Of a stretch of 41,224 nucleotides of DNA, positions 8,462-28,742 are shown one piece after another. The notes below the pieces were generated by a model. It saw nothing but the letters and a program-made list of their open reading frames with translations, was not told where the DNA came from and made no database searches. Within the stretch, counting starts at the first letter, position 1. Each line of letters begins with the position of its first letter. The DNA is from Scytolyngbya sp. HA4215-MV1 (GTDB taxonomy: Bacteria > Cyanobacteriota > Cyanobacteriia > Leptolyngbyales > Leptolyngbyaceae), in contig JAHHIA010000023.1 in the NCBI GenBank assembly GCA_019359045.1, positions 1-41,224 of the forward strand, read 5' to 3'. Made by a program: the position numbers and the translations under genes.

Positions 8462-9331
8462 CTAGGTCTGATTTGAAATCTCCACGAGGCGCTGATAGCG
8501 ACGGCGTGCCGATCGTCCCAAGACTGCACTGGCGAGCGCCATCGGCACACTCAACCCGCCAAATAGAATGCGGGTGCGTTCCCCATTTTGGCGAATCTCT
8601 GCTTCTGTGCCCACAAGCACCTGTAAGCGATCGCCCAACGGATCGACCAATTGGCTGCCCTTGGGCGTAGACTCTAGCCCTGCCACAATCACCACTGCCT
8701 GTCCATAGGGCAAAACTTGGCGCTCCACTTCGGTCGAAACACTACTGGCTTTGCCCCATTTGTTTGGGTCAAGGGGAAAATGCCGTCCACCGTATTCCAC
8801 CTCGATCGGTTTGGCAAAGCGCCCCACCCCATCTCGATGAATTTGTGGCAGTGTTTCTGGGGGGGCCTCTGGCAGCGGCAGGGCAGCGAAATCAAACCCA
8901 AGGCGCACCTGATGCTTGCCATCCGATAGATCAATTGGTTGGGCAGATTGCTCCCATTGCCATAAGGTTTCTCGCAAGGGTGCCTGACTGGTCTGCGTTT
9001 CTTTGATCTGCACATTCAATTTGCCGCGAATCACCCGCAGCGAGGCTTGATCTGGCATTCGCGGGGGATGATCCGTGATCAAATAACCTTGTAGCTTAAC
9101 CAGGTCGCGCCGATCGCCCCGATAGTTAGCAGCCGCCTGCACCGACATCGATTCCAGCCTTGCCAAAGATTGGGCAGTCCAAGTGGGCATGCCGATTGCT
9201 GCGCTGAGCGCCAACAAAAACGCCAACCCACCCGTCGCCACTGCCCCAAACGCCATGGCAGCATAAGCGTTATACTCTCGCCGACTGACGTTGCGAGGTC
9301 TACCCGTCCAGAAGGAATATCGCATTCGCAT
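8462..9331 (-). CDS. Two-helix membrane protein resembling the GIDE/BAM domain without RING
   Basis: A 289-residue protein with a hydrophobic helix at about 27-49 and a second at about 262-280, separated by a soluble beta-rich domain. The segments VKLQGYLITDHPP, IDLSDGKHQVRL and VLPYGQAVVIVAGLE resemble the membrane-flanked GIDE domain of MUL1/SP1-like proteins, but the chain ends after the second helix with a basic tail (RSARRRYQRL) and has no RING finger. The function in bacteria is unknown. It lies 45 nt downstream of the TonB-like gene on the same strand, so the two may be cotranscribed. The family call is a resemblance I judge likely but have not tested. Confidence 0.55.
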   Translation of the reverse strand: MRMRYSFWTGRPRNVSRREYNAYAAMAFGAVATGGLAFLLALSAAIGMPTWTAQSLARLESMSVQAAANYRGDRRDLVKLQGYLITDHPPRMPDQASLRVIRGKLNVQIKETQTSQAPLRETLWQWEQSAQPIDLSDGKHQVRLGFDFAALPLPEAPPETLPQIHRDGVGRFAKPIEVEYGGRHFPLDPNKWGKASSVSTEVERQVLPYGQAVVIVAGLESTPKGSQLVDPLGDRLQVLVGTEAEIRQNGERTRILFGGLSVPMALASAVLGRSARRRYQRLVEISNQT

Positions 9332-9376
9332 GATTCCTTCATAGCACTGTCAGGATCTCAGGTGCAATTGATTGAG

Positions 9377-10525
9377 TTACTTCGGTGATTGGGTCCAGAC
9401 CACGACGATCGTGCCCACCCCTCTTGAACTTCCCGCTTTCAAGGGAACTAAGTTCAAATAGAGGGTCATCCCCCCCTTTTTGAGCTGGTAGAGGGGACCG
9501 CCCCCATAGTCGCCCACCTTGGTCGCCGCTTCAAAGATGTTTTGCAACTCTGATTCAAAGTAGCTTTGATAAAACGGTTCGGGTTCCTCGCCAATCGCCA
9601 CCTTCATCGAGCCATCAATGGTGGGCAGTTGCTCTGGATTGAGGGCAAAACCATCCCCACTGCCACCCACATCTTGATAGAAAAGCTTAGGTTGGTCAAA
9701 ATCTTCCGGTGTGGCGAGCGAACTCTCAGCCGCCGGATCGGTCGAATCACTCCCCGGCAACCCAGCCAGTAACTCATAAAACGCAGTGGGAATTTCGATC
9801 GCCCCTTTCAGCGCTTTCAAACTGGGAATTTCGTTGGGAGCCAATACATACACCGTATTCTTTCCATCCTGAAATAAATTCAAGAACAGGGATTTATCGC
9901 CTTTTGTGACCTGAAAAACTTGCTTGCCTGCCTCAGAGGTTAATGGCGTCAGCGTAAACTTCTTGGTCGGCAAAGTTTGTTTGAAATAATCAGCGATCGC
10001 ATCAATCGCCACCCCCTTCACCTCATAGCAGCTTTCCTTGTCGTAGCAACCCGCCTGCGCTCTGGGGTGATGGGGAAAGTCCAAAAACGGATCTTTCGCG
10101 TCATTTTTGGTGTCTTTGGTCTCGTTAGCCGATTTAGATTCGGGTGTTTTGGGGACAGGCACGGTCGGTCTGGGGCGATTCACTTTTGCCGCTACCTTCT
10201 TCACCTTCGGACGCGGCACCTTGGGCTTGGGCTTCACCGACGGCAGTTGTGTAATTTTGACAGGAGCTTCGGTTTGCTTGGGGGCAGGCTTCTCCAGATT
10301 GGGGAATGGTGTAAACAAAAACAATGCATGGAGACCGAGCGAAGCCACCAACAGGGGACGAATCAGCACCCGCAAAGGCAGGGGTAACCGTTGCCAGGGC
10401 GAACCTTGACCCACTGTCTCACTCTGAAATGAAGTGACAGTTGTCCGGGGAACATCCTGCGGCTCTGAGAGAGAGCCATCGGGCGAAATGAGATTGGTTA
10501 GATCTTCTTCTGTCGTGCGGGTCAT
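9377..10525 (-). CDS. TonB-like protein with a duplicated C-terminal module
   Basis: A 382-residue protein built like TonB: a cytoplasmic N-terminus of about 50 residues, one helix at about 52-72 (VLIRPLLVASLGLHALFLF), then a Pro/Lys-rich spacer at about 78-130 (VKPKPKVPRPKVKKV and similar). The C-terminal half is not a standard TonB domain. It holds two related modules: VFQVTKGDKSLFLNL at about 205, and LYQLKKGGMTLYLNL at about 345, each followed by a hydrophobic V-rich strand. Convergent exbB-exbD lie next door, making an energy-coupling role in the cell envelope likely. It could instead be a structural periplasm-spanning protein. The ATG at 10525 is the first start in frame. Confidence 0.7.
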   Translation of the reverse strand: MTRTTEEDLTNLISPDGSLSEPQDVPRTTVTSFQSETVGQGSPWQRLPLPLRVLIRPLLVASLGLHALFLFTPFPNLEKPAPKQTEAPVKITQLPSVKPKPKVPRPKVKKVAAKVNRPRPTVPVPKTPESKSANETKDTKNDAKDPFLDFPHHPRAQAGCYDKESCYEVKGVAIDAIADYFKQTLPTKKFTLTPLTSEAGKQVFQVTKGDKSLFLNLFQDGKNTVYVLAPNEIPSLKALKGAIEIPTAFYELLAGLPGSDSTDPAAESSLATPEDFDQPKLFYQDVGGSGDGFALNPEQLPTIDGSMKVAIGEEPEPFYQSYFESELQNIFEAATKVGDYGGGPLYQLKKGGMTLYLNLVPLKAGSSRGVGTIVVVWTQSPK

Positions 10526-24112: not shown

Positions 24113-24889
24113 CTAAAGCTGCTTACTACCATCCGGCATCATTGCTCCTTGCAAATCTGCATCCGTCAATACTGCCCCGGTCAAATCTGCGTCCCTCAAA
24201 TCTGCATTACGTAAAATTGCGCCCGTGAGATCGGCATAACTCAAATCGGCTCCGCGCAAATTGGCTTCACTTAAATCAGTCGGCTTCATTCCCTGTTGTA
24301 ATGTCCGATTCAAATGAGCTCGGCAAAGTCTTGCACCCTCCAGGTTTGCCTGATACAAGATCGCACCACTCAAATTGGCATAGCACAGTTCTGCCTTGCT
24401 CAAAATGGCGTAACCCAGATCCGTGACTTGATCCAGCGTGGGACGCAAATCCGCCTCAAACAAATTGGCACCCAGCAATTTCGCACGAACTAAGTTCGCC
24501 CCGCCTAAGATTGCCTTACTCAAATTCGCTTGCTCCAGATTGGCGTTACTCAGTTTGGCACCGCTCAAATCTGCCTCTCGGAGGATCGCTTGATACAAAT
24601 CTGCCAGGCTCAGATTCGTTCCCCACAAAATTGCCTCGCTCAGATCGGTTGCGCAGAAATTGGCTTGGCTAAAATCTGTTTTCCCCAATCGCGCTTGTCG
24701 CAAATCTGCCTGACTGAAGTTCACTCCACTCAGAGCCACCCCATGCAAATCGACCTCTCGCAGGTTGACGCCTTGAAAGTTTCGCTCCCCTTCGACGTAG
24801 CGCTTCAAAAGGTCGTCAATCAAGATCTTGGTTACCTTGGGAGATGGCAACTGTAGAGGTTTCGCTGGAAAAGAAGTTCGTTCGGTCAT
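24113..24889 (-). CDS. Pentapeptide-repeat protein
   Basis: A 258-residue protein. After a helical N-terminus of about 38 residues come some 40 tandem A(D/N)LXX-type pentapeptides (ANLEQANLSKAILGGANL and similar), which fold as a right-handed beta helix. The run is broken near 150-165 (TLDQVTDLGYA) and near 195-205 (LQQGMKPTDL). No signal peptide or membrane segment is seen. Such proteins are abundant in cyanobacteria and act as scaffolds or DNA mimics; the specific role here is unknown. It lies 116 nt downstream of the DUF3593 gene on the same strand and may be the tail of that operon. Confidence 0.9.
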   Translation of the reverse strand: MTERTSFPAKPLQLPSPKVTKILIDDLLKRYVEGERNFQGVNLREVDLHGVALSGVNFSQADLRQARLGKTDFSQANFCATDLSEAILWGTNLSLADLYQAILREADLSGAKLSNANLEQANLSKAILGGANLVRAKLLGANLFEADLRPTLDQVTDLGYAILSKAELCYANLSGAILYQANLEGARLCRAHLNRTLQQGMKPTDLSEANLRGADLSYADLTGAILRNADLRDADLTGAVLTDADLQGAMMPDGSKQL

Positions 24890-25005: not shown

Positions 25006-25305
25006 TTACCCACGGTTCGTAGCACGTTGGCGAACCAGCGCCTGACGAAATCCCAGCACAATCAGAATATTGGAGAGCGTCAAGAAGGACTCAGCTATTC
25101 CGTGCAGCCAATCCACATTTGCCAAGGACTCTCCATAAACAACCTTTGTGTAGATTCCAGCAGCAATCGTCACCCCCACAAATACCAGGGTGAAATAAAA
25201 TCCAATTAGAGCCAGACGAGGAACTTGTCCTGAACGGGTGAGAAACCCAAGAAACGCTACATAGGGAAACAGAGACAGCGCAAACACCAGATCCTTAGAA
25301 ATCAT
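25006..25305 (-). CDS. DUF3593-like small membrane protein
   Basis: A 99-residue protein with three hydrophobic helices (about 5-22, 32-52 and 75-90). SLFPYVAFLGFLTRSGQVPRLALIGFYFTLVFV matches my memory of DUF3593, a family of oxygenic phototrophs with no assigned function. The start overlaps the end of the upstream gene by 11 nt and has AGGTAAGG as ribosome site, so the two are coupled. The pair is the distal part of the nitronate monooxygenase operon, which carries an operator shared with psbA; a role in thylakoid membranes is a reasonable guess. Confidence 0.7.
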   Translation of the reverse strand: MISKDLVFALSLFPYVAFLGFLTRSGQVPRLALIGFYFTLVFVGVTIAAGIYTKVVYGESLANVDWLHGIAESFLTLSNILIVLGFRQALVRQRATNRG

Positions 25306-25615
25306 GACGATGCCTTACCTCAGAACGATTTCGCTGCCACAACCACCACGCTGCCCACAAAAGCGTACAATTCCCCACGAAAGTCATAGTGGCTTGTACC
25401 ATGCCTAACCATGCCAATGTGGGGGCATTATCAAAAAAGTGCCAAGTGCAAACGCAAATCGCACTCACCCAGGCAGGCACCATCGCGATCGCCATGCCCT
25501 TCCAGGCAGGATTCTGGCTGGCATCTGCATAAGACCATACCAGCCAAATTGCCACCATCCATTCCAAGACACTCAAAATGTGAATGACCCAGGTGGGAAT
25601 TGAAAGTACATGCAT
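25295..25615 (-). CDS. DUF2499-like small membrane protein
   Basis: A 106-residue protein with three hydrophobic helices rich in Trp (SIPTWVIHILSVLEWMVAIWLVW, MVPAWVSAICVCTWHFF, NCTLLWAAWWLW). The pattern fits DUF2499, a family of cyanobacteria and plastids that is commonly beside DUF3593, as here. No function is established. It starts 20 nt after the nitronate monooxygenase stop, indicating cotranscription, and overlaps the following gene. Confidence 0.7.
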   Translation of the reverse strand: MHVLSIPTWVIHILSVLEWMVAIWLVWSYADASQNPAWKGMAIAMVPAWVSAICVCTWHFFDNAPTLAWLGMVQATMTFVGNCTLLWAAWWLWQRNRSEVRHRHDF

Positions 25616-25634
25616 AGTAATGACAAACTTGTTC

Positions 25635-26729
25635 TTAGACGCTCACCGCTTCTCGTACACCCGTTAACTCCGCCATCACCTCAGCCACCGACAAAAGTCG
25701 CTCTGCCCTTCCTACGTTGGCACCTGAAAAGATCAAGCCATTCTCGACATCTCCCCGTGCCGCATTCGCCAATGCCTGAAGAATACAATAGGTCTTGCGG
25801 CTATCCCGACAGAGGCAAATCTCTAGACAATTGACAATGCATCGCCGTTCTAAATCGGTGGAGGCACTTATCGCCTTTTCAGCAAATGCATTGCGTAACG
25901 CGCGAGCAGGCTTACCCACCGGACTGGGCACGATCGTCACATCCGCTGGATCGGCATGAAGATGAAACTCTTTGTAGCGTTGATCGGCATCACACTCCTC
26001 AGTAGTGATAAAGCGAGTCCCCACTTGAACCCCCTTGGCTCCCAACGCTAACATGCGATCGACATCTGCACTATCCCAAATTCCTCCGGCTGCAATGAGT
26101 GGAATCTCCACGTGAAAATGATTCTGAAGATAATTCTGAATTTGAGGAATTAAAGGCTCAATCTGTCCGCTGAACTCCTCACAAGTGGTGCCAATATGTC
26201 CACCAACTACTTTAGAATTCTCCACAATAAAGGCATCCGGTAAGCGATCGTACTGTTGCTGCCAGGTATGACAGATCGCTTGCACCGCTTCTAAGCCACA
26301 CACCATCGGAACTAACGCCACTTCTGGGTAGTCTACTGTGTAAGCAGGCAAGTTCAAGGGCAAGCCTGCGGCTGTAATGATCAGGTCTGCACCATTTGCC
26401 GCCGCCGTCTGAGCCATGGCTGGATAATCTTTCGTCGCAACCAGAATATTCACCCCAATCACCCCATTGGGGCTAATGGCACGCGCCTTTTTCAGTTCAT
26501 CACTTAATGCCAATTGATTGGCAATGAAAAAGCTACCTTGTTTGGGATGAGTGTCAAAATAAGGGGAATCCAGCCCTAAGCCCAGAGAGGAGATGACCCC
26601 GACCCCTCCCGTCTTGGCAACCGATCCCGCCAAACGAGCACCCGACACCCGCACTGCCATCGCCCCTTGAACAATCGGATAACGGGCAGTGTGTTGACCA
26701 ATTCTAAGTGGAGGCAGCGATCTCGACAT
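25635..26729 (-). CDS. Nitronate monooxygenase family FMN enzyme
   Basis: A 364-residue TIM-barrel flavoenzyme of the nitronate monooxygenase/2-nitropropane dioxygenase family. It shows PIVQGAMAVRVSGARLA at the N-terminus, GVGVISSLGLG near 43, VENSKVVGGHIGTT near 170 and IPLIAAGGIWDSADVDRMLALGAKGVQVGTRF near 210 (the phosphate-binding end). A cysteine-rich stretch, CIVNCLEICLC near 300, is notable. Family members oxidise nitronates with O2; the true substrate here is unknown. It heads an operon with DUF2499 and DUF3593, and its promoter carries the operator also found at arsR and psbA, so it is probably controlled by the neighbouring repressor. Confidence 0.85.
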   Translation of the reverse strand: MSRSLPPLRIGQHTARYPIVQGAMAVRVSGARLAGSVAKTGGVGVISSLGLGLDSPYFDTHPKQGSFFIANQLALSDELKKARAISPNGVIGVNILVATKDYPAMAQTAAANGADLIITAAGLPLNLPAYTVDYPEVALVPMVCGLEAVQAICHTWQQQYDRLPDAFIVENSKVVGGHIGTTCEEFSGQIEPLIPQIQNYLQNHFHVEIPLIAAGGIWDSADVDRMLALGAKGVQVGTRFITTEECDADQRYKEFHLHADPADVTIVPSPVGKPARALRNAFAEKAISASTDLERRCIVNCLEICLCRDSRKTYCILQALANAARGDVENGLIFSGANVGRAERLLSVAEVMAELTGVREAVSV

Positions 26730-26743
26730 ACGATACTTCGCTC

Positions 26744-26795
26744 AATAACTAAATAGTGATGCAACGAATATACCACTTCAGATCTGGAAACTCAA
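26744..26795 (-). promoter_or_regulatory. Promoter and ArsR-type operator of the nitronate monooxygenase operon
   Basis: Read on the minus strand, a -35 TTGAGT (26790-26795), a 17-nt spacer and a -10 TATATT (26767-26772) form a good sigma-70 promoter. Just downstream, at about +1 to +20, is the operator core AATAACTAAATAGTGATG (plus strand, 26744-26761). A repressor bound there would block initiation or early elongation. Confidence 0.65.
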
Positions 26796-26802
26796 CCCGC
26801 AA

Positions 26803-27234
26803 TTAATGTCGCGAACCAGGTACTTGCTCTTTCACCTTGGTCTTTTGGGATTTAGCACTTTTCTTAGGGGCACTGCTATTGGACTGCAGAGTTGTGGCTT
26901 GCAAAAACTTTTCAGCCTGTTGACGCAACCGATCGCCAATCTGACCACAGGCTAGTTCACAAAATTCAAAGACCAGTGGATCAGCAATTTCATAATAGGC
27001 ACTGGTTCCTTTTGGCTGACGGGTCAGAATCCCTGCTTGGGTCATCACCTTGAGATGCTTCGAAAGGTTTGCTTGACCTAATTCAGTTGCCTCACACAAC
27101 TCCATCACATTCATGGGACCCGACCTGAGGCATTGCAGAATATGCAAACGGCTTGTCTCAGAGAGGATTTTGAAGTAGTCCGCAACGGCTTCAAGCACAG
27201 CAATGGGGACTAGCGGTTGGACTGACTTTGGCAT
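26803..27234 (-). CDS. ArsR/SmtB-family transcriptional repressor
   Basis: A 143-residue winged-helix protein. AVADYFKILSETSRLHILQCL (about 15-35) is the ArsR dimer/helix-1 region, followed by the recognition helix in QANLSKHLKVMTQAG and the wing RQPKGTSAYYEI. Four cysteines are present (35, 47, 92, 96), but the classic ELCVCDL arsenic motif is reduced to ELCEATE. Cys47 and Cys92/96 could form a redox or persulfide switch as in SqrR/BigR-type members; that is inference. The C-terminal 35 residues are basic and variable. It lies between two target-like promoters and has the same operator upstream of itself, so autoregulation is likely. Confidence 0.88.
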   Translation of the reverse strand: MPKSVQPLVPIAVLEAVADYFKILSETSRLHILQCLRSGPMNVMELCEATELGQANLSKHLKVMTQAGILTRQPKGTSAYYEIADPLVFEFCELACGQIGDRLRQQAEKFLQATTLQSNSSAPKKSAKSQKTKVKEQVPGSRH

Positions 27235-27260
27235 GGGGCGGGCAGAATCTATAAAAGTTT

Positions 27261-27278
27261 AATAACTATATAGTAGTC
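27261..27278. promoter_or_regulatory. ArsR-type operator upstream of its own gene
   Basis: AATAACTATATAGTAGTC shares the core AATAACTA-NNY-AGT with the sites at 26744 and 27566. It lies 27 nt upstream of the repressor's ATG (minus strand), within the likely promoter, as expected for autorepression. Confidence 0.6.
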
Positions 27279-27361
27279 TAACCCAAGCAATACCCGCGAT
27301 CGTACCCCTCAATCACAAGCTAAGGAACGAGAACCTAACAAAACCGTTCATTCTGTAGCTT

Positions 27362-27412
27362 AGCATTCGGGCTAAACTTCGGCGATGGGCCAAAAGTCAC
27401 CTGCCGAATGCT
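27362..27412. repeat. Inverted repeat between arsR and psbA
   Basis: AGCATTCGG (27362-27370) and CCGAATGCT (27404-27412) are exact reverse complements 33 nt apart. The stem lies in the 426-nt divergent gap, upstream of both promoters. It has no T-run; it may be an additional regulator site or a repeat remnant. The remainder of the gap besides the two operators shows no gene. Confidence 0.4.
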
Positions 27413-27555
27413 GAGTCCTTGCGCTTGGAAAATTTGTCGATGTTATTTACTCCCCATTCTCAAGAAACCGCTTCATTCGTCGTTACAACAGCATTCTCAC
27501 CAACCCTCAACCAAGATTGACGCATGCTCGAACAACGCATCTTCCCAGATCTCTA

Positions 27556-27588
27556 TTGACAACTTAATAACTATTCAGTTATTAAGTT
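27556..27588 (+). promoter_or_regulatory. psbA promoter with perfect palindromic operator
   Basis: A consensus -35 TTGACA (27556-27561) is followed after 17-18 nt by a weak -10 (TTATTA or TATTAA, about 27579-27585). The spacer and -10 are filled by a palindrome with 12-bp arms, AACTTAATAACT (27561-27572) and AGTTATTAAGTT (27577-27588). Its centre contains AATAACTATTCAGTTATT, the motif found at arsR and the nitronate monooxygenase operon. Binding here would occlude RNA polymerase. Confidence 0.75.
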
Positions 27589-27659
27589 ATAAAAGATCGT
27601 TTTTTCTAGTGCTTCATACTTCATAACGACATCCTTAATCAATTTGCACGAATGGAATC

Positions 27660-28742
27660 ATGACTACACTTCTCCAGCGGCGCAATCGCGCCAATTTGTG
27701 GGATCGTTTTTGTGACTGGGTCACCAGCACCGAGAATCGACTGTATGTCGGTTGGTTTGGGGTTCTGTTAATCCCGACGGCCTTAACCGCTGCGATCGTA
27801 TTTATTCTGGCAATGATTGCTGCCCCACCAGTGGATATCGATGGCATTCGGGAACCTGTTTCAGGGTCGTTGCTCTATGGCAACAACCTGATTACGGCAA
27901 CGGTTGTCCCAACCTCAGCTGCTGTTGGTTTGCATCTTTACCCCATTTGGGAAGCCGCTTCTTTAGATGAGTGGTTATATAACGGGGGACCTTATGAAAT
28001 GATCGTGCTGCATTTCTTAATTGCGGTATATGCCTACATGGGACGGCAATGGGAACTGAGTTATCGTCTGGGCATGCGTCCCTGGATTGCAGTGGCATTT
28101 TCTGCTCCCGCTGCTGCGGCAACTGCGGTGCTCCTCATTTACCCGATCGGACAAGGTAGCTTTTCTGATGGGATGATGTTGGGCATTTCTGGCACCTTCA
28201 ACTTCATGATTGTGTTTTCTCCCGAACATAATCTCCTCATGCATCCCTTTCATATGTTAGGAGTGGCTGGGGTCTTTGGGGGCGCCCTCTTTGCAGCCAT
28301 GCATGGCTCATTGGTGACCTCTTCTCTAGTGCGTGAAACCAGTGAAACTGAGTCGCAAAACCACGGGTATAAGTTTGGACAAGAGGAGGAAACTTACAAC
28401 ATCGTGGCAGCGCATGGTTACTTTGGACGGTTAATCTTCCAATATGCATCTTTTAACAATAGTCGTGCGTTGCACTTTTTCCTGGCTGCTTGGCCCGTTA
28501 TCGGCATCTGGTTTGCGGCGTTGGGCATCAGCACGATGTCGTTCAACTTAAATGGACTGAATTTCAACAGTTCGATTTTGGATCATGAAGGACGAACTAT
28601 TCCGACGTGGGCAGACGTTCTCAACCGAGCCAATTTAGGAATTGAGGTGATGCACGAGCGGAATGCCCACAACTTCCCACTGGATTTGGCATCGCGCGCA
28701 GCTCAACCGATCGCGATCGTAGCGCCTGCGATTTCTAGCTAA
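27660..28742 (+). CDS. psbA: Photosystem II D1 protein, microaerobic-type (D1') variant
   Basis: A 360-residue D1. All manganese-cluster ligands are present (Asp170, Glu189, His332, Glu333, His337, Asp342, and Ala344 before the processed tail), as are Tyr161/His190, His198, His215, His252, Ser264 and His272. It carries the three marks of D1' forms: Ala80 (Gly in standard D1), Leu158 (Phe) and Ala286 (Thr). It also has Met173 (Pro) and Phe147 (Tyr), and Gln130 as in low-light D1. Known D1' proteins are made under low oxygen. Unusual are Ser187-Pro188 before ligand Glu189, and Ala87 for Asn. The palindrome in its promoter ties it to the adjacent ArsR repressor. No other psbA is in the window. 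Confidence 0.95.

Follow-up and report, generated by a model that had tools for sequence, protein, structure and literature searches.

Probable repression in air of low-oxygen genes for photosynthesis and chlorophyll by an ArsR-family protein encoded next to a D1' gene in many cyanobacteria

Introduction

What does an ArsR-family regulator do beside a gene for a D1 protein, and which other genes might it control? The question is raised by a stretch of 41,224 nt from Scytolyngbya sp. HA4215-MV1 (contig JAHHIA010000023.1; hereafter the window), whose host genome of 6.6 Mb we call G000. In the window, arsR (26803-27234, minus strand) lies between psbA, coding for a D1' protein (27660-28742, plus strand), and a gene for a nitronate-monooxygenase-like (NMO) flavin mononucleotide protein of family PF03060 (25635-26729, minus strand). 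A first-pass annotation had proposed that the ArsR repressor responds to a redox or sulfur signal and ties psbA to an operon made up of the NMO gene and genes for DUF2499 and DUF3593 proteins. The analysis described here suggests that the window contains both the regulator of a low-oxygen regulon and one block of its targets, repressed by a protein of this ArsR clade through the palindrome WATAACT-N4-AGTTATW. We put the probability of this reading at about 0.72.

Both D1' and ChlAII are induced at low oxygen in other strains (PMC5295598 and PMC4500134), and in Acaryochloris psbA1 shows microoxic induction together with a petC paralogue (PMC5295598). The role that we propose for ArsR has so far been assigned to an unrelated regulator, ChlR (Sll1512), whose targets are acsF2/chlAII, ho2 and hemN, plus the D1' gene psbA1 in Synechocystis (PMC4500134). 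ChlR belongs to the MarR type, carries a [4Fe-4S] cluster and acts as an activator; a review gives its box as TTMCC-N3/4-GGWAA (PMC13421787). How the low-oxygen enzymes of chlorophyll, heme and bilin synthesis are controlled in cyanobacteria without ChlR, or with a ChlR that lacks the cluster cysteines, was left open in a review (PMC4500134).

Results

An exact scan of the window found AATAACTANNYAGT at positions 26744, 27261 and 27566, always on the plus strand, which confirmed the coordinates of the three-copy motif that had been placed upstream of the NMO operon, arsR and psbA. These are the sole exact matches in the 6.6-Mb genome. When up to two mismatches were allowed, the window held 10 copies against a shuffled mean of 3.06, and none of 100 shuffles reached 10. 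The psbA copy, AATAACTATTCAGTTATT (27566-27583), forms a palindrome whose 12-bp arms match perfectly around a centre of 4 nt (88% over 17-nt arms), and it fills the spacer of a putative plus-strand psbA promoter (27556-27585) between TTGACA (27556-27561) and TATTAA (27580-27585). Both boxes were read by eye; a strict promoter scan did not list this promoter. The motif scan placed an asymmetric, operator-like copy, AATAACTATATAGTAGTC (27261-27278), 27-44 bp upstream of arsR. The third operator-like copy (26744-26761), from the same scan, stands at the expected transcription start of the NMO operon, just downstream of the minus-strand promoter-like match TTGAGT-17-TATATT (26795-26767, with its -10-like match at 26772-26767); the promoter scan returned 2 matches in total against a shuffle mean of 4.9. 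The conserved form of the motif is the palindrome WATAACT-N4-AGTTATW, which is kept well outside this window and has an equivalent in most D1' promoters.

The gene identities given by the first-pass annotation (ArsR, NMO, DUF2499, DUF3593 and PsbA/D1') hold, by profile searches and a residue check of PsbA. The 143-residue ArsR scored 43.2 bits against PF01022 (HTH_5; cut-off 22) and 79.3 bits against NF033788 (cut-off 55), which places it in the ArsR/SmtB family, and in the tree it falls in a group of relatives that we call clade A. PsbA scored above the TIGR01151 cut-off; it carries A80, L158, A286 and M173 and keeps all of the Mn ligands D170, E189, H332, E333, H337, D342 and A344. A80, L158 and A286 together with intact Mn ligands are what we take to be the signature of the microaerobic, group 3 D1', and the window PsbA has all of them.

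The first-pass annotation had suggested a search of related genomes as a check, and this search found both the motif and the arsR-psbA-NMO linkage conserved in relatives. Of 386 genomes in the phylum, 126 gave matches to ArsR, counted at E up to 1e-15 with paralogues included; "ArsR hit" has this meaning throughout, so that group-B paralogues are counted in. Relatives at 39 loci were named for closer study. Protein searches of their flanks found pentapeptide-repeat proteins at 19 loci, NMO at 15, PsbA at 12, AcsF at 12 and HemF at 6, and 27 of the 39 hold at least one of PsbA, NMO, AcsF2 and HemF within the fetched flanks. Among the matches listed, no more than 10 kb separates a clade-A arsR from acsF2 in 9 of the 56 genomes with both acsF2 and an ArsR hit (G066, G326, G298, G125, G305, G170, G155, G103 and G141). 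The assignment to acsF2 used a threshold of >505 bits that was chosen in this analysis.

Target genes were then compared with control genes for the presence of the site; score thresholds and upstream lengths (250-450 bp) vary between these comparisons. At the 39 named loci, 10/11 PsbA, 10/11 AcsF, 6/6 HemF and 11/14 NMO genes have a site of 13/14 or better in the 300 bp upstream; the same scan gave 5/210 for other open reading frames, 5/20 for pentapeptide-repeat genes and 7/36 for arsR. A site scoring at least 12 was found in 27 of 32 D1' promoters from genomes with an ArsR hit versus 2 of 27 standard D1 promoters, counts for which a significance test overstates independence because the sequences are related. 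A second psbA fetched from the host genome (L321) has no site. In 16 of 24 D1'-type promoters, a set that takes in three near-variants of the three-residue signature, TTGAC directly precedes the palindrome, an arrangement that fits a repressor blocking the promoter. Sites of at least 12 also precede acsF2 in 40/64 cases in genomes with an ArsR hit (acsF1, 2/21 by this looser score), NMO in 14/16 (window included; some are nearer a divergent psbA) and ho2 in 18/35.

A weight matrix trained on the named-locus sites gave a similar separation, with test and training sets that partly overlap. At a score of at least 10 within 300 bp (250 bp for D1), it detected sites upstream of 41/64 acsF2 genes where the genome has an ArsR hit and 0/5 where it has none (G249, G101, G062, G091 and G074), 0/21 acsF1, 21/24 D1'-type, 0/17 standard D1 and 34/78 arsR genes. 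The best site of score at least 11 stands 35-70 bp upstream in 34 of 78 arsR relatives. By the number of upstream regions scoring at least 12, the half-site AATAACT ranked first among 105 permutations, with a gap of 4 the best, for arsR (n=78), D1' (n=21) and acsF2 (n=69); for standard D1 it ranked 92 of 105. A fragment (L077), a distant hit (L136) and a duplicate (L167) were omitted from the half-site, matrix, site-position and cysteine counts.

In the host genome, 32 places match the palindrome with at most two mismatches; two of them are in the window and three fall within 3.4 kb on another contig. These three sites flank acsF2 (TIGR02029), which is divergent from the heme oxygenase gene ho2, hemN (TIGR00538) and bchE (TIGR02026); the locus also holds a phosphodiesterase-like gene. 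The BchE encoded there (L088:2976-5021, contig C31), in line with ho2 and hemN, carries a C-terminal response-regulator receiver domain.

We also fetched 33 stretches around exact palindromes from other genomes, most of them with an ArsR hit. The palindrome stands between acsF2 and hemF2 or ho2 in six (L121, L124, L125, L130, L139 and L151), by NMO in L132 and L134, and by psbA in L136. The gene set of the first-pass annotation was supported in its psbA and NMO linkage and was too narrow in its extent: the set looks like a low-oxygen one and takes in acsF2, hemF2 and ho2, and the DUF2499/DUF3593 pair is not a general part of it. Most of the remaining 22 palindromes, inside genes or beside genes with no evident relation (the L145 stretch ends before the site), were taken as chance. 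Exact palindromes at L119:3537, L122:880, L133:3560 and L135:3511 lie 19-78 bp upstream of genes for a Tll0287-like protein, a DUF2214 membrane protein, a DoxX protein and an HdrC-like iron-sulfur protein, respectively; these genes are possible further members of the regulon. Taken as a comparison of genomes, the data show a common site, a gene set with a preference for low-oxygen paralogues, and a linkage of both to the ArsR clade.

The ChlR regulon of Synechocystis 6803 and Synechococcus 7002 resembles the window system in the types of its targets. However, ChlR is a MarR-type activator, whereas the window system has an ArsR-type protein, a different palindrome and site positions that fit repression. 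No ChlR box was found upstream of the host acsF2 (L152), and a PF12802 search for ChlR in the host genome gave no protein with C-x(4-7)-C-P among the 30 loci returned. That the palindrome might itself be a ChlR site was considered and dropped, as the published box differs and box and palindrome were not found together.

Within one genus of five species (g7), the two systems alternate. In G014 and G078, ArsR is present, the site stands 29-32 bp ahead of acsF2 and there is no ChlR box. The other three species, G074, G091 and G386, lack both an ArsR hit and an acsF2 site and carry a ChlR box at -171 to -180. The matrix scored the acsF2 site of G014 at 11.6, which 2 of 300 shuffles attained, and that of G078 at 15.1, which 0 of 300 attained, and the best scores in G074, G091 and G386 were -9.9, -9.9 and -5.5, reached by 148-238 of 300 shuffles. 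Simple match counts at acsF2 separate the genus little (11 and 12 versus 10, 10 and 11). The four D1' genes tested in this genus follow the same division, with matrix scores of 10.1 (G014) and 19.5 (G078) and no box, and of 1.5 (G074) and 1.6 (G091) with a ChlR box and no site. In G058, the sole listed ArsR hit belongs to group B (77% to B), and acsF2 has a ChlR box and no site. By these comparisons, the ArsR/palindrome and ChlR/box systems alternate within genus g7.

Like other members of its family, the window ArsR is predicted to form a winged helix (mean predicted local distance difference test score, 76.6) with a long helix 5, residues 85-119; in the ArsR family, helix 5 is the dimer helix. 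The protein carries cysteines C35, C47, C92 and C96. Among 74 members, a count from which four group-B rows were additionally omitted, C92 is kept in 74, C96 in 70, C35 in 60 and C47 in 5. We did not find the helix-3 C-x-C metal motif in the window ArsR, which has only C47 there. The nearest solved folds include CzrA, SmtB, Rv0081 and SqrR, at 19-29% identity and template modelling (TM) scores of about 0.5 over the query. Of the cyanobacterial relatives with solved structures, SmtB of Synechococcus 7942 (1smt, 1r1t), the zinc sensor of metallothionein, is the nearest in both sequence and fold; it shares about 20% identity with the window ArsR.

In the sulfur sensors of the SqrR type, the two cysteines are placed in helix 2 and helix 5. 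The sulfur-sensing repressors SqrR, BigR, YgaV, SoxR and sHdrR share the ArsR fold and two conserved cysteines (PMC12423496). In contrast to that group, the window ArsR has a C-x3-C pair in helix 5 and a predicted regulon of low-oxygen photosynthesis genes, and it scored 31.7 bits against the NCBIfam BigR model, far below the cut-off of 155. RexT (Alr1867) of Anabaena 7120, a cyanobacterial ArsR-type redox regulator that is not a metal sensor, has vicinal cysteines C40-C41 and binds ATTCG-N15-CGAAT (PMC13421787); the window ArsR is set apart from RexT, as described, by a single helix-2 cysteine (ILQCL) and a different operator.

Discussion

Our results suggest a model in which an ArsR dimer would bind WATAACT-N4-AGTTATW. 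In air, it would occupy the -35/-10 spacer of the D1' gene, the start of the NMO operon and its own upstream region, keeping all three off, and would do likewise at the unlinked acsF2/ho2-hemN-bchE locus. A drop in oxygen would then cause a change at the helix-5 pair C92-x3-C96, perhaps with helix-2 C35, that releases ArsR and allows a low-oxygen D1, Mg-protoporphyrin ester cyclase, coproporphyrinogen oxidase and heme oxygenase to be made. Binding at the palindrome, repression, the oxygen or redox signal and the part played by the cysteines are what we infer from the arrangement of genes and sites. C92-x3-C96 is a candidate sensor: the four thiols of a dimer might together bind an iron-sulfur cluster that bridges the two subunits, or might pair as disulfides in air. 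We know of no case of oxygen sensing through such cysteines in the ArsR fold. The stronger proposal, that this clade is the master low-oxygen photosynthesis switch in many cyanobacteria, independent of ChlR, swapped with it between close relatives and sensing oxygen through C92 and C96, is a tentative one that we regard as doubtful.

Several observations weigh against the proposed regulon. Matches to AATAACTANNYAGT with at most one mismatch are not in excess genome-wide (14+9 versus 37+42 for the reversed control), and the signal is therefore the clustering of copies, not their count. Similarly, the 32 host palindromes compare with 36 in controls, so we claim only two host loci; the idea of a large regulon in this genome was dropped. 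A target-type gene stands next to the site in only 11 of the 33 stretches around exact palindromes. At the 39 named loci, no site of at least 13/14 was found at desaturase (0/3) or PetC (0/1) genes. Near sites occurred at HemN and BchE in 1/19 and 0/3 cases; in L123 and L128, the distance from the exact palindrome to bchE is about 400 and 620 bp. Among the 32 D1' genes, G033, G045, G087, G014 and G284 account for five without a site at 12, and the count becomes 27/34 when two ChlR-type D1' genes are included. For acsF2, 24 of the 64 upstream regions from genomes with an ArsR hit fall short of 12, and two of five from genomes without a hit reach it within 400 bp; one of the latter genomes, G249, has a good acsF2 site at -327 (matrix 16.4). 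The acsF1 control gave 1/21 at 12 or above and a half-site rank of 3/105 by count among ties. Sites at arsR itself are weak or asymmetric (7/36 at 13 or above), and a gap of 0 gives 11 there versus 13 for a gap of 4. The swap between systems rests on five genomes, in which the acsF2 proteins of the ArsR type are 71-73% identical to the query versus 64% for the ChlR type; this gap means that gene replacement, rather than promoter change, may underlie the swap.

Could the palindrome belong to another regulator, such as a one-cysteine ChlR paralogue or a second ArsR, with arsR merely one of its targets? The weakness of the arsR sites would fit, as would the site of G249, which has no ArsR hit, and candidates exist: Anabaena retains a one-cysteine ChlR of unknown role (PMC4500134), and the host genome encodes a group-B ArsR paralogue (L367:1923-2294, contig C15; 80% to a group-B member). 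However, the targets are strongly linked to clade A, and the ChlR box is unlike the palindrome and was found upstream of acsF2 only in G058, G074, G091 and G386, all without the site. The host group-B arsR gene has no palindrome site upstream, and G058, with its group-B protein, has none at acsF2. We consider control by another regulator unlikely. A classical metal or arsenic ArsR that came to lie beside psbA by chance, the motif clustering by local duplication, is very improbable: family membership and the NCBIfam name, a metalloregulator, speak for it, but the helix-3 motif is absent and, in many genomes, the site recurs at loci that are not linked and in front of genes that are not related.

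The nature of the signal is a separate matter, since the clade-A ArsR might sense sulfide or persulfide, as SqrR and BigR do, with low oxygen only accompanying sulfide. Its helix-2 and helix-5 cysteines resemble those of reactive-sulfur sensors (PMC12423496), SqrR is among its fold matches, and in some cyanobacteria sqr has group-3 psbA genes or arsR in its vicinity (PMC5061849); arsR and petC2 have also been described close to sqr (PMC11304991). On the other hand, the genes that carry the site code for low-oxygen isoforms of enzymes that use oxygen, the BigR score is low, and 14 of 74 members lack the helix-2 cysteine. We therefore hold sulfide sensing to be rather unlikely; of the redox or sulfur signal that the first-pass annotation had put forward, the sulfur half is possible and is not favored by the gene content.

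Repression by the clade-A ArsR thus remains our preferred explanation, and we conclude that both regulon and operator are probably new for this known protein family, the clade-A ArsR being the probable regulator. No ArsR, operator or regulon of this kind was described in the literature searched, a search from which subscription papers were largely absent, and within that range the first-pass view of the gene set as an undescribed regulon stands. The main text of PMC10830646, considered as a source of expression support, contains no mention of arsR, nitronate, acsF, coproporphyrinogen or heme oxygenase. For cyanobacteria without ChlR, the finding offers a candidate regulator gene, a defined 18-bp site and a predicted list of targets. 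It would tie the D1' isoform to the same switch as the low-oxygen tetrapyrrole enzymes, and it predicts further members among unknown genes that carry the palindrome.

Neighbouring genes

Downstream of the NMO gene, the window codes on the minus strand for a DUF2499 protein (25295-25615) and a DUF3593 protein (25006-25305), both identified by Pfam profile. The first-pass annotation had counted this pair among the partners of arsR and psbA, an association that turned out to be local: DUF2499/DUF3593 genes were seen beside arsR in the window and in one of the 39 named loci (L040), and they were dropped as core members of the regulon. DUF2499 adjoins DUF3593 in 10 of 12 loci fetched. Because the host has two copies of DUF3593 and each of 11 other genomes checked has one, the window pair is a second copy of an otherwise single pair, the other being at G000:C23:369087 (L357), which parallels D1' as a second D1. 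For the same reason, the copies in the window may encode a low-oxygen isoform of this membrane protein pair.

A pentapeptide-repeat protein, identified by profile search, is encoded beyond this pair (24113-24889, minus strand); since a relative is found near arsR in 19 of the 39 related loci, its gene is perhaps part of the set. NMO is a single-copy gene in the host genome and was present in 7 of 15 genomes searched. In Stenomitos frigidus (L039:5493-5863), the NMO gene next to arsR seems to be reduced to fragments, and at L065:6876-7966 it is split across two frames. Near an arsR-psbA-NMO group, L068 (9750 and 9181-9714) holds a paralogue of the Rieske protein PetC, preceded at about 36 bp by a site that is weaker and asymmetric; this paralogue calls to mind the microoxic petC of Acaryochloris.

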